A stretch of 64,000 bases of DNA from Geomonas agri (GTDB lineage Bacteria > Desulfobacterota > Desulfuromonadia > Geobacterales > Geobacteraceae). Both the position numbers and the translations under genes were made by a program. Shown in pieces: positions 15,021 to 18,482 of the stretch (position 1 is the stretch's first letter; each line of letters starts with the position of its first letter). The notes under the pieces are model-generated. The model made no database searches, was not told the origin of the DNA, and saw only the letters and a list, made by a program, of their open reading frames with translations. The DNA lies in assembly GCF_020179605.1 (NCBI RefSeq), contig NZ_JAINZO010000001.1:2454799-2518798 (forward strand). The letters are read 5' to 3'.

Positions 15021-15049
15021 TTGACACCAGTGCCTCCCTTACCTATATT
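15021..15049 (+). promoter_or_regulatory. Sigma-70 promoter of the htpX-terC operon
   Basis: TTGACA (15021-15026), 17 bp, TATATT (15044-15049). The expected start site near 15056 coincides with the first bases of the riboswitch. Confidence 0.8.
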
Positions 15050-15056
15050 TCATGTT

Positions 15057-15206
15057 GGTAAAGGGGAGTAGCTATCGGTTGACACGGCAACCGACCCGTG
15101 TTCGTCAAGACGGCCGCATCGGCCCGGACATGGGGCATGACAATCCTGTCAGAGCAAGCAAGACCTTTACCCAGTGCACGCACGCCTGGGTAAAGGTCTT
15201 TTTATT
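15057..15206 (+). promoter_or_regulatory. yybP-ykoY family manganese riboswitch with intrinsic terminator
   Basis: The leader opens with GGTAAAGG (15057-15064) and the family's conserved GGGGAGTAGC loop (15063-15072). The TCGTCAAGACGGCCG region and GGGGCATGACAATCCTGTCA follow. It closes with GCAAGACCTTTACC (15158-15171), whose CCTTTACC pairs with the first strand to form P1. The same 3' strand is the left arm of a perfect 13-bp terminator stem (15161-15173 with 15187-15199) followed by TTTTTATTT. P1 and terminator are therefore mutually exclusive, as expected for a transcriptional ON switch in which Mn2+ binding permits read-through. The family assignment is from recalled consensus; it was not run against a covariance model. 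Confidence 0.85.
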
Positions 15207-15236
15207 TGACCAGGCGATCCGGCAAGGAGGTACGTC

Positions 15237-16076
15237 ATGAACCGATTCAAAACAGCGGTCCTTCTCACCACCCTCACACTGATCATGGTGGCGCTAGGCA
15301 GCGCCATCGGCGGCCGGGGCGGGATGTACTTCGCCTTCTTCATAGCCTGCGCCATGAACCTCTTCTCCTACTGGTTCTCGGACAAGATCGTGCTGCGCAT
15401 GTACGGGGCGCAGGAGATCACCGAGGCGGAGAACCCGGCCTTCTACGGCATGATCCGGAGGCTGGCCGTCCAGGGGGGACTCCCCATGCCCCGGGTCTAC
15501 ATCATCCCCTCGGAGAGCCCCAACGCCTTCGCCACCGGCAGGAACCCGGAACACGCCGCGGTGGCAGCGACCGAGGGGATACTGCGCATCCTGACTCCCG
15601 AAGAAATGGAGGGGGTGATGGCGCACGAGCTGAGCCATGTCGCCAACCGCGACATCCTCATTTCCAGCATCGCCGCCACCATCGCCGGCGCCATCTCCAT
15701 GCTGGCCAACATGGTGCAGTGGGCGGCCATCTTCGGCGGGCGCAGGGACGACGAAGAAGGTGGGGGCTGGGGCGGCCTGGCGCTCGCCATCATCGCGCCC
15801 ATCGCCGCCATGCTGATCCAGCTCGCCGTCTCCAGGAGCCGCGAGTACCTTGCCGACGAGAGCGGCGCGAGGCTGTGCGGCAAGCCACGCTCCCTGGCCA
15901 GCGCGCTCAGGAAGCTGGACCAGGCATCCCGGGCCCTGCCTATGTACGAGGCACGGCCGGCGACGGCGCACATGTTCATCGTCAACCCGTTGAGCGCTGG
16001 AATGCTGATGCAGCTTTTTTCCACGCACCCCCCGATGGAGGAGCGTATCGCCCGACTGGAGCAGATGGGGCATTAA
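15237..16076 (+). CDS. htpX: Membrane zinc metalloprotease HtpX
   Basis: A 279-residue M48-family endopeptidase of the inner membrane that degrades misfolded membrane proteins. It has two N-terminal helices (about 8-28 and 31-48), the zinc motif HELSH and the downstream glutamate in [13 protein letters not shown]. Two further hydrophobic segments flank the [10 protein letters not shown] and [13 protein letters not shown] stretches. AAGGAGG lies seven bases before the ATG. It is the first gene after the manganese riboswitch and is followed by terC after 12 bp, so both should be under Mn control. HtpX is more commonly linked to heat or envelope stress, which makes the arrangement noteworthy. 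Confidence 0.96.
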
Positions 16077-16088
16077 CCGGAGGGAGTT

Positions 16089-17006
16089 TTGACCAACAGA
16101 GAGATGATGTGGATCGCCTTCGCGGGGATCATCACCGTGATGTTCATCCTGGACCTCTTCGTCTTCAACAGGAAGAGTCACGAGATAGGGTTTCGCGAGG
16201 CGCTGACCTGGACGGCAGTCTGGGTCGGTCTGGCCATGGCCTTCAACGTCGGCGTCTGGTACGAGCTGGGGTCGGCCAAAGCCTTGGAATTCCTCACCGG
16301 CTACATCATCGAGGAGTCCCTCTCCGTCGACAACCTCTTCGTGTTCATCATGATCTTCTCGTACTTTAAGGTGTCGAGGGCGCTCCAGCCCAAGATACTG
16401 AAATGGGGGATCATCGGTGCGCTGGTGATGCGAGGCATTTTCATCGTGGTGGGGATAGAACTCATCGAGCGTTTCCACTGGATGATCTACGTGTTCGGCG
16501 CGGTGCTGATCTACACCGGTTTCAAGATGGCGTTCGGGGACGACGAGGAAGTCCACCCGGAGCACAACCCGCTGGTACGTCTGGTGCGCCGCTTCGTCCC
16601 CATCACCAAGCGGGCGCGCGGGGACCGCTTCTTCATCAGGAAGCGCGGCATCTGGGCCGCCACCCCACTGTTTCTGACCTTGGTCGTGGTCGAATCTAGC
16701 GACGTGATCTTCGCCGTCGACTCCATCCCCGCGGTGCTCGCGGTCACCCACGATCCCTTCATCGTGTACAGCTCCAACGTCTTCGCCATCATGGGGCTGC
16801 GCTCGCTGTACTACCTGTTGGCCAACGTCATGGAGATGTTCGCCCACCTGAAGCTCGGCGTTTCCGTGATCCTCGCTTTCGTGGGGTCGAAGATGCTCCT
16901 GTCGAACCTGGTCGAGATCCCGCTGCAACTCTCCCTGGGCGTCATCCTCGGCGCCCTGACCATTTCCATGCTCACGTCCGTAGTGGCGGCCCGCAAACAC
17001 AGGTAA
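16089..17006 (+). CDS. TerC/Alx-family membrane protein, probable manganese exporter
   Basis: A 305-residue polytopic protein of the TerC family. It has about eight or nine membrane helices, the family motif EESLSVDNLFVF, and a later acidic intramembrane motif, VESSDVIFAVDSIPAV. Both contain the Asp/Glu residues thought to bind metal. E. coli Alx and related TerC proteins export Mn2+ or help metallate secreted proteins, and their genes are classic yybP-ykoY targets, which fits the upstream element here. The start is TTG at 16089, with GGAGGG four bases before it; the first in-frame ATG (16104) is too far from that site. Confidence 0.93.
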   Translation: MTNREMMWIAFAGIITVMFILDLFVFNRKSHEIGFREALTWTAVWVGLAMAFNVGVWYELGSAKALEFLTGYIIEESLSVDNLFVFIMIFSYFKVSRALQPKILKWGIIGALVMRGIFIVVGIELIERFHWMIYVFGAVLIYTGFKMAFGDDEEVHPEHNPLVRLVRRFVPITKRARGDRFFIRKRGIWAATPLFLTLVVVESSDVIFAVDSIPAVLAVTHDPFIVYSSNVFAIMGLRSLYYLLANVMEMFAHLKLGVSVILAFVGSKMLLSNLVEIPLQLSLGVILGALTISMLTSVVAARKHR

Positions 17007-17058
17007 AGCAGAAAAAACATGACCTCAGCTGCCAAATGGGCTAAATGCCTCCACATCT

Positions 17059-17152
17059 CCTCTCCCTCCGGGAGAGGGCTAGGGTGAGGGGATGACAGCA
17101 CTTGGCAGCGCCCTCACCCGCCCTTCGGGCACCCTCTCCCGGAGGGAGAGGG
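17059..17152. repeat. Dispersed intergenic repeat with 20-bp terminal inverted repeats, copy 1
   Basis: The ends CCTCTCCCTCCGGGAGAGGG and CCCTCTCCCGGAGGGAGAGG are perfect 20-bp inverted repeats. Inside are a second pair (AGGGTGAGGGG and CCCTCACCC) and a small hairpin, GCCCTTCGGGC. A second copy sharing both outer blocks but with a different centre lies at 54627-54739. It occupies the gap between the convergent terC and CNNM genes and could also act as a structural terminator. Confidence 0.8.
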
Positions 17153-17165
17153 AACAGTACCCACC

Positions 17166-18482
17166 TTAAACTTTGTCGCGCTCTTCCTCTCTCTTCACAA
17201 TGCGTACTTGGGTGATGCCGGTGCGGGTCACTTCCTCACAGGTCAGCAGGTACTCGCCCAACTCGACCTTCTCCCCCTGCTCGGGGAAGCGCCCGATCCG
17301 GTTCAGGATGAGCCCCGCCAGCGTGTCGTAGGGAAGATCATCGCCGAGGTCTACCTCCAAAAGATCCTCGAGATCCGAGATGGAGATCAGGGCGTCGACC
17401 AGGAAGCTCCCGTCCGCCAGCACCTGCACCCGGCTCGGTTCCCCCACGTCATGCTCGTCCTCGATCTCGCCCACCAGCTCCTCGAGCAGATCCTCCGTCG
17501 TCACGATACCGCTGATGCTGCCGTACTCGTCCACCACGAACGCCATGTGTACCCGCGTTTTCTGCATCTCCTTCAGCAGCTCGCTCACCTTCTTCCCCTC
17601 GGGGACGAACACCGGCGGGCGCACGATGGAACGGATGTCGAAGTCGGGCTCGCGCACCATGCGCCCCAATAGGTCCTTGCCATGGATGAAGCCGACCGTC
17701 TCCTCGATGCTGCCGAGGTACACCGGGTAACGGGAGTACATGTTGTCCAGCACTCCGTTCAGGATCTCCTCGTTGGAGAGGTTCAGGTCGAAGGCGACCA
17801 CGCGGGTGCGCGGCACCATCACCTCGCGCACGGCGGTGTGGGTGAAGTCGAAGAGGTTGTCGATGAAGGTGTGCTCGGTCTCGCTAAAGATGCCGCTTTC
17901 ATGCCCCTCGGCGACGATGTGCTGCACCTCCTCGCGGGTCATGAAGGCCTTCCCCTCACCCTTCAATCCGAACAGGGCCAAGGTGAACTTGGTGGAGTAG
18001 CTGAGAAAGGACACCAGCACCCCCGCCACCCGGGCCAGGGAGGTGATGGTCTTCACCACCCGCAGCGCGACCGGCTCGGCGTACTGCAACCCGGCAGTCT
18101 TGGGGACCAGTTCCCCGAGGATCAGTTGCAGGTAGGAGATGGCGCTAACCACGATGCCGATGGCGAGCGGTTCGGCGGCGTTGCGAACCATGGCGATGGG
18201 GGAGACCTGCAGCACGGGGCGAATGTAGTCTACGGCGATGACGCCGCCAACCGCCGAGGCAGTCGAACCTACTACGGTGACGCCGATCTGCACGATGGCG
18301 AGCAGGCGGTGCGGGTCGTTTTGCAGTGACTCCACCAGCGCGGCCCGCTGGTCCCCCATGGCGACCAACTGCGCGACCCTGCTTTTACGAATGGAGATGA
18401 TGGCGAACTCAGCGCAGGAGAAAAATCCGTTCAACAGAATGAGGACGGCGATGACCAGCAGTTCGACGAAGACGGTATCCAA
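17166..18482 (-). CDS. CNNM/CorC-family membrane protein (DUF21-CBS-CorC_HlyC)
   Basis: A 438-residue protein with an N-terminal DUF21 domain of four hydrophobic helices (~1-190; FFSCAEFAIISIRKSR motif), a CBS pair (~205-335), and a C-terminal CorC_HlyC domain. Members of this family bind Mg2+ and ATP, and several are implicated in Mg2+ or Co2+ transport; the older name is hemolysin-like. The start is TTG at 18482, supported by GGAGGGGC immediately upstream and the lack of a nearby ATG. It ends near a repeat element and is convergent with terC. Confidence 0.93.
   Translation of the reverse strand: MDTVFVELLVIAVLILLNGFFSCAEFAIISIRKSRVAQLVAMGDQRAALVESLQNDPHRLLAIVQIGVTVVGSTASAVGGVIAVDYIRPVLQVSPIAMVRNAAEPLAIGIVVSAISYLQLILGELVPKTAGLQYAEPVALRVVKTITSLARVAGVLVSFLSYSTKFTLALFGLKGEGKAFMTREEVQHIVAEGHESGIFSETEHTFIDNLFDFTHTAVREVMVPRTRVVAFDLNLSNEEILNGVLDNMYSRYPVYLGSIEETVGFIHGKDLLGRMVREPDFDIRSIVRPPVFVPEGKKVSELLKEMQKTRVHMAFVVDEYGSISGIVTTEDLLEELVGEIEDEHDVGEPSRVQVLADGSFLVDALISISDLEDLLEVDLGDDLPYDTLAGLILNRIGRFPEQGEKVELGEYLLTCEEVTRTGITQVRIVKREEERDKV

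Follow-up and report, generated by a model that had tools for sequence, protein, structure and literature searches.

A yybP-ykoY-type riboswitch leader precedes the membrane protease gene htpX and terC in Geomonas agri and recurs before htpX in related bacteria

The window, the whole 64,000-nucleotide stretch of Geomonas agri DNA analyzed here, sits on contig C1 of a 4.68 Mb genome. Its positions 15021-15207 hold a sigma-70-type promoter, a four-way-junction aptamer of the yybP-ykoY type and a terminator, followed on the same strand by a membrane protease gene and a TerC-family gene. The features are given below in window coordinates; the 73 leaders and the covariance model R1 are described further on.

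15021-15049, + strand: promoter, TTGACA-17-TATATT (consensus score 11/12)
15057-15171, + strand: yybP-ykoY-type aptamer with P1.1, L1, P1.2, P2, P3.1, L3, P3.2 and P4 (fold, covariation, R1 match of 94.0 bits)
15057-15064, + strand: 5′ strand of P1.1, GGTAAAGG (sequence and fold)
15063-15071, + strand: L1 core, GGGGAGTAG (in 73 of 73 leaders)
15103-15107, + strand: P3.1/L3 core, CGTCA (in 73 of 73 leaders)
15158-15165, + strand: GCAAGACC, 3′ side of L1 and beginning of the P1.1 3′ strand (sequence)
15162-15207, + strand: intrinsic terminator, 13-bp stem and T-run (sequence and fold)
15164-15171, + strand: switch segment CCTTTACC, common to P1.1 and the terminator (sequence and folds)
15224-15230, + strand: AAGGAGG, probable ribosome-binding site of htpX (sequence)
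15237-16076, + strand: htpX, M48 zinc metalloprotease of 279 aa (NF002826, 402.7 bits; cut-off 369)
16089-17006, + strand: terC, TerC/Alx type, 305 aa, TTG start (TIGR03718, 427.9 bits; cut-off 246.4)

The original prediction had named htpX and terC as the genes of an operon; both identities stand, each product scoring above the cut-off of its model, and the two genes are 12 nt apart. The curated model and the HExxH motif, present as HELSH in the translation of 15624-15638, mark HtpX as an M48 family member with a putative role in membrane proteolysis. The TerC/Alx protein also matches PF03741 (168.6 bits, cut-off 27.8), and its predicted activity is the Mn2+ export or metalation ascribed to its relatives in the accessible text of a Bacillus subtilis study (PMC10550928). 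A Geomonas azotofigens contig (L257) encodes an HtpX 97% identical and a TerC 94% identical to the window proteins. Past terC lies an inverted-repeat element (17050-17156) with 42 matches in its own genome, itself included; it is a dispersed repeat outside the operon. A convergent CNNM/CorC-type gene of a cation-transport family (17166-18482) adjoins the operon.

The consensus promoter said to head the leader is there: TTGACA-17-TATATT matches in 11 of 12 positions, three promoter-like sites being found in the 2.6 kb scanned versus 0.6 expected from shuffles. Transcription would start near 15056. All 73 leaders have a TTGACA at most 75 nt before the aptamer. Folded alone, 15056-15172 adopts the four-way junction at −51.2 kcal/mol (z −4.56), a value that none of 200 shuffles equals. 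Lengthening the RNA by 34 nt to 15206 abolishes P1.1 in favor of the terminator (−68.8 kcal/mol, z −6.58), whose long hairpin takes up the P1.1 3′ strand. The two 13-bp arms, GACCTTTACCCAG (15162-15174) and CTGGGTAAAGGTC (15186-15198), are directly followed by TTTTTATTT (15199-15207), and the 5′ arm doubles as the P1.1 3′ strand of the aptamer. The switch that had been read between P1 and a 13-bp terminator sharing CCTTTACC is borne out in both computed folds, with the overlap at 15164-15171. A simple terminator scan passed over this hairpin because its loop limit is 8 nt and the actual loop has 11 nt. The P1.1 3′ strand lies inside the terminator stem in 73 of 73 leaders, with every T-run tried, and in all 73 at least five of the six bases CCUUUA are paired in a hairpin of −17.3 to −31.9 kcal/mol that a T-run follows. 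In Lactococcus lactis, according to the available portion of a mechanistic study, P1.1 is the switch helix, its 3′ segment joins the terminator in the ligand-free state, and Mn2+ brings about antitermination (PMC11087558). Because the P1.1–terminator layout matches that of the L. lactis riboswitch, the window leader would be expected to be ON with Mn2+.

Judged by its predicted fold and conserved cores, the window RNA is a member of the known yybP-ykoY riboswitch class, and would bind Mn2+ selectively, with docking of L1 and L3. It has the attributes of the class: a four-way junction built from P1.1/P1.2, P2, P3.1/P3.2 and P4; the L1 core GGGGAGUAG with GCAAGA opposite; an expression platform of the transcriptional type that competes with P1.1; and, in the presumed register, an L3 with an invariable adenosine four bases past the closing C-G pair. 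The accessible text on the Xanthomonas oryzae structure places the invariable adenosine of the Mn2+ site at the fourth base after the closing C-G pair (PMC6754395). Aligned to that structure in a register that we infer, A15107 is this fourth base and is probably the Mn2+-contacting adenosine. The yybP-ykoY-type conserved loops originally noted agree with the four-way-junction fold and with L1 and L3 cores that are invariant in 73 of 73 leaders.

The Rfam model of the class is a poor detector here. RF00080 scores 21.3 bits at 15051-15150 (261 nt searched, E 3.4e-4) against a gathering score of 45, which is a detection threshold and not a structural definition, and no Rfam family reaches its gathering score anywhere in the window. 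The original prediction had named the lack of an above-threshold RF00080 hit as its own refutation, and formally that is the outcome; the cut-off is indecisive, though, because it also misses other such aptamers. Among ten pattern-defined aptamers in eight test loci it was exceeded once (L208, 51.6 bits); two more scored below it (L218, 35 bits; L217, 28.2 bits), and the remaining seven were not detected at E up to 0.05. In strict-filter mode RF00080 matched in 10 of the 78 genomes of the order, and five of the 11 listed matches span merely 26-32 nt. A third RF00080 match in the window's own genome (L003) was set aside as chance (E 6.2). Since RF00080 is too weak in this group, a covariance model, R1, was built from the leaders themselves.

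These leaders come from HtpX matches in the 78 genomes of the order: of 122 strong ones, 110 had their neighborhoods fetched. By motif search, 73 of the 110 have an aptamer leader, and a covariance search of the remaining 37 added five, bringing the total with an aptamer to 78 of 110. One aptamer (L036:1273-1432) carries an insert in the P3.2 region and exceeds its relatives in length by about 40 nt. Alignment A1 comprises 41 of the 73 leaders, near-copies having been dropped and the insert-bearing L036 left out. On A1, RNAalifold recovers P1.1, P1.2, P2, P3.1, P3.2 and P4, and 21 of 32 pairs show changes on both sides. Paired cells amount to 94.6%, whereas shuffles give 83.6% and slid structures no more than 51.1%, and none of 500 shuffles was as high. 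One of five covariation measures (further pair types) is unremarkable, with 149 of 500 shuffles as high, and P1.1 hardly varies, so covariation neither backs nor refutes that helix. Run on 80 of the 120 public pattern-scan loci listed, R1 recovers all 83 pattern-picked aptamers in them.

Across the 78 genomes R1 gives at least 136 matches, a number that is no census because of strict filters. Of these 136, 82 share the strand of an htpX and lie less than 500 nt ahead of it, where about 0.013 would be expected under even placement; R1 was trained on htpX leaders, and htpX-type matches are therefore favored in this fraction. Of the 54 matches not directly before htpX, 20 were read. Genomes with strong htpX matches number 77, a count that leaves out distant M48 relatives below 192 bits; 37 have linked htpX only, 19 have both kinds and 21 have unlinked htpX only, and these 21 mean that the link is not essential to the order. 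Within the window's genus, all strong HtpX matches are riboswitch-linked in 18 of 19 genomes. The placement of HtpX first behind the leader, once called unusual, is real, but it is no local oddity, given that the aptamer is present in 78 of the 110 htpX neighborhoods from the order. Mapped onto a 121-row HtpX tree (89 rows linked, 32 unlinked; three are repeat fetches, L178 of L067, and L246 and L257 of L026 and L019), the linked label requires 4 changes, whereas shuffling gives 28.5 on average. The tree splits into a part with 82 linked and 3 unlinked rows and a part with 29 unlinked and 7 linked rows; these 7 belong to Nitrospirota, to families f52 and f63 and to an unassigned contig. On this quick tree, whose deep branches are weakly supported and which has several long rows, the linked HtpX of Nitrospirota, f52 and f63 stand apart from the order's linked HtpX. 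A search for a sequence hallmark of linked HtpX turned up nothing striking: five positions differ consistently from the unlinked clade, none of them obviously catalytic.

Beyond the order, the htpX link is also found in further families of the phylum and in Nitrospirota. Among the 23 R1 matches listed outside the order, 20 were read, and six of these precede htpX: two within the class (L183, family f5; L185, f6) and four in the phylum (L189, f52; L192, L194 and L197, f63). A separate pattern scan returned at least 120 loci, with 123 aptamers among the matches listed, whose neighboring gene families were assigned by tblastn with our own queries. The first matched gene within 900 nt of these 123 was TerC-type (TerC, YkoY, YjbE) in 72 cases, a P-type ATPase in 13 and HtpX in eight; the ORF family of query L213 accounted for four, Zn-ribbon for two, and UPF0182 and Tim44 for one each, while 17 aptamers had no match to any query and five had less than 300 nt downstream. 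The eight before htpX are L230, L246, L257, L259, L267, L298, L308 and L317, none of them titled as Bacillota. L246, L257, L298 and L308 had already been counted in the order, which leaves four new ones, and so 4 of the 123 listed aptamers precede htpX beyond the order: L230, L267 and L317, whose titles read Nitrospirae or Thermodesulfovibrionia, and L259, which is unassigned. In L230:3330-7403 (Nitrospirae bacterium MnB_6, Mn-Nitrospirae-1) an aptamer and htpX are followed by an aptamer and a P-type ATPase gene, each with a terminator-like T-run. An aptamer on a contig titled Syntrophales (L276:1476-1587) scores 106.4 bits, level with those of Geobacterales, and precedes a TerC-type gene; it may reflect transfer or misbinning.

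In its own genome the window leader is one of four R1 matches (window, L001/L078, L162, L163), and both strong HtpX matches and all three TerC matches lie behind such matches. At L001/L078 a second htpX is followed about 166 nt on by a second TerC gene, with repeat-like inverted sequence in the gap; the two are presumably co-transcribed. About 9.4 kb before the window, L162:130-1724 (G000:C1:2445195-2449500) has an R1 match with a terminator, a short ORF and the third TerC gene, of 408 aa. The R1 match of L163:130-1697 (G000:C1:2114351-2118651) likewise has a terminator of its own, and the genes after it encode a ribbon-helix-helix protein and a Tim44-domain protein; aptamers of this kind are repeatedly followed by Tim44-like genes. 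UPF0182 and Zn_ribbon_TFIIB genes also stand behind or near an aptamer (L168, L176, L179, L181, L165, L182, L191), and are possible further members of a manganese regulon.

Exporter-type genes accompany linked htpX. An exporter-type gene (TerC, GDT1/MneA, P-type ATPase or YjbE) occurs within 2 kb in 69 of 78 linked versus 1 of 32 unlinked loci, with one linked locus that ends 35 nt past htpX (L082) counted as without exporter. For TerC alone, with a start less than 700 nt past htpX, the figures are 61 of 78 linked and 1 of 32 unlinked loci. The unlinked exception with an exporter, from the same genus (G017; L027:1350-1460), has kept the leader promoter and terminator, and its aptamer is missing; unless this is an assembly fault, it is a natural deletion that should leave htpX-terC mostly off. 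In L077, L089 and L092, htpX is followed by LemA- and GDT1/MneA-type and then TerC-type genes, all on one strand behind one aptamer. It might be argued that the switch exists for TerC and that htpX is a passenger, merely sitting between leader and exporter: both window genes stand behind one leader, terC is a known kind of target for the class, and TerC lies that close in those 61 of 78 linked loci. This account is unlikely, however, on several grounds. In the linked loci htpX is the first gene behind the aptamer; in the stretch read around the linked htpX of L192, L194 and L197 no exporter-type query matched; and in L230 htpX and the P-type ATPase gene have one aptamer each. Conversely, the terC genes of L164 and L180 have an aptamer and no htpX, so that the two genes are separable, yet widely kept together. 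HtpX probably has a genuine part in the manganese response.

The E. coli alx member of this riboswitch class responds to alkaline pH as well. That cue, touched on in the available text of PMC9603457, together with a review that, in its accessible part, allows for yybP variants specific for other ions and regards some associated genes as out of keeping with Mn2+ sensing (PMC7266159), leaves some room for an aptamer that senses another divalent ion, or mainly pH. Such a ligand is nevertheless distinctly improbable, since all 73 leaders share the L3 core CGTCA, as do 112 of the 123 aptamers among the pattern-scan matches listed, and these listed aptamers precede TerC-type genes (72) and P-type ATPase genes (13). 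A constitutive attenuator, or a chance resemblance that senses no ligand, would fit the RF00080 match below gathering, but is scarcely credible in the face of the covariation, the invariant cores, the conserved P1.1–terminator overlap and the fold z of −4.56.

From the fold, the P1.1–terminator overlap, the gene order and their conservation, all read from sequence, we infer a Mn2+-ON transcriptional riboswitch that co-induces exporters and the membrane protease HtpX, with a probability of about 0.7. Within this reading, Mn2+ as the ligand together with the ON direction is very probable. With little Mn2+ the leader would form the terminator, and transcription would halt ahead of htpX. Mn2+ held between L1 and L3 would stabilize P1.1 and withhold its 3′ strand from the terminator, and the polymerase would then continue into htpX and terC. 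TerC may lower cytosolic Mn2+ or hand it to exported proteins. HtpX, made alongside, may remove membrane proteins damaged or mismetallated by surplus Mn2+, or made a liability by it, metal importers for example. The recurrence of the htpX-aptamer arrangement in many related bacteria suggests that Mn-overloaded cells also switch on membrane protein clean-up; the likeliest task for HtpX, at roughly even odds, would be to clear the membrane proteins that Mn2+ excess harms or makes dangerous. The supposition that TerC and HtpX belong together draws outside support from B. subtilis, where HtpX, by the available account, is among the membrane proteins that co-purify with the TerC proteins MeeF and MeeY, beside Sec components and FtsH (PMC10550928). 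In the same organism, as described in the accessible sections of another study, YqgP and FtsH remove the Mg2+ transporter MgtE at high Mn2+ and low Mg2+, protecting the cell (PMC7231995). A bolder and more tentative proposal, which we put at somewhat under even odds, makes HtpX a dedicated manganese-stress protease in bacteria that cycle metals, across two phyla or more. It would be produced once the riboswitch detects excess Mn2+ and would act at the membrane, next to TerC or some other exporter, to remove mismetallated proteins or the importers that let Mn2+ in. Its main cue would then be manganese rather than heat or envelope stress, in keeping with the 18 of 19 genomes of the genus whose strong HtpX matches are all riboswitch-linked.

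Many Geobacteraceae reduce manganese oxides, and hence face Mn2+. Carriers of the arrangement include Geobacteraceae and the Mn-Nitrospirae-1 contig. With a protease as a conserved target, quality control of membrane proteins would be coupled directly to metal sensing by RNA, and two questions would gain a genetic entry: the purpose of HtpX, and the way in which TerC proteins work together with the secretion machinery. In the literature, as far as its accessible text goes, the named targets of yybP-ykoY are mostly exporters and TerC-type proteins, and a review, in its available part, refers to diverse other associated genes that it leaves unnamed (PMC7266159). A full-text literature search, with subscription papers mostly outside its coverage, returned no earlier report of HtpX behind a yybP-ykoY riboswitch, and an earlier mention is possible. 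Two papers that contain both words make no HtpX–riboswitch connection in their accessible passages (PMC6337395, PMC8546594), and the main text of two Geobacter genome papers mentions none of htpX, TerC or yybP. The protease as a conserved riboswitch target looks to be the new part.

Known systems resemble the window in several respects and differ in others. The yybP-ykoY (Mn2+) riboswitch of L. lactis has, in the available text, the same four-way junction, the same L1 and L3 cores and the same sharing of the P1.1 3′ strand with the terminator (PMC11087558). It controls the exporter-type gene yoaB, by the accessible account (PMC9190785), whereas the first gene in the window is a membrane protease. 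In Vibrio parahaemolyticus, TerC- and GDT1/MneA-type genes (terC and mneA) likewise lie behind yybP-ykoY and, in the part available, are Mn-induced; HtpX is unmentioned in the main text (PMC13274385). B. subtilis meeY (ykoY) is likewise a TerC-family gene under a manganese riboswitch, in an organism whose HtpX co-purifies with TerC proteins; the accessible text does not place htpX under the riboswitch, whereas the window has protease and TerC gene behind one leader (PMC10550928). The YqgP-FtsH/MgtE system of B. subtilis likewise employs membrane proteolysis against Mn2+ excess; there, by the accessible account, Mn2+ acts through a metal-binding domain of the rhomboid protease (PMC7231995), whereas in the window control would fall on how much M48 protease is made, through an RNA switch.
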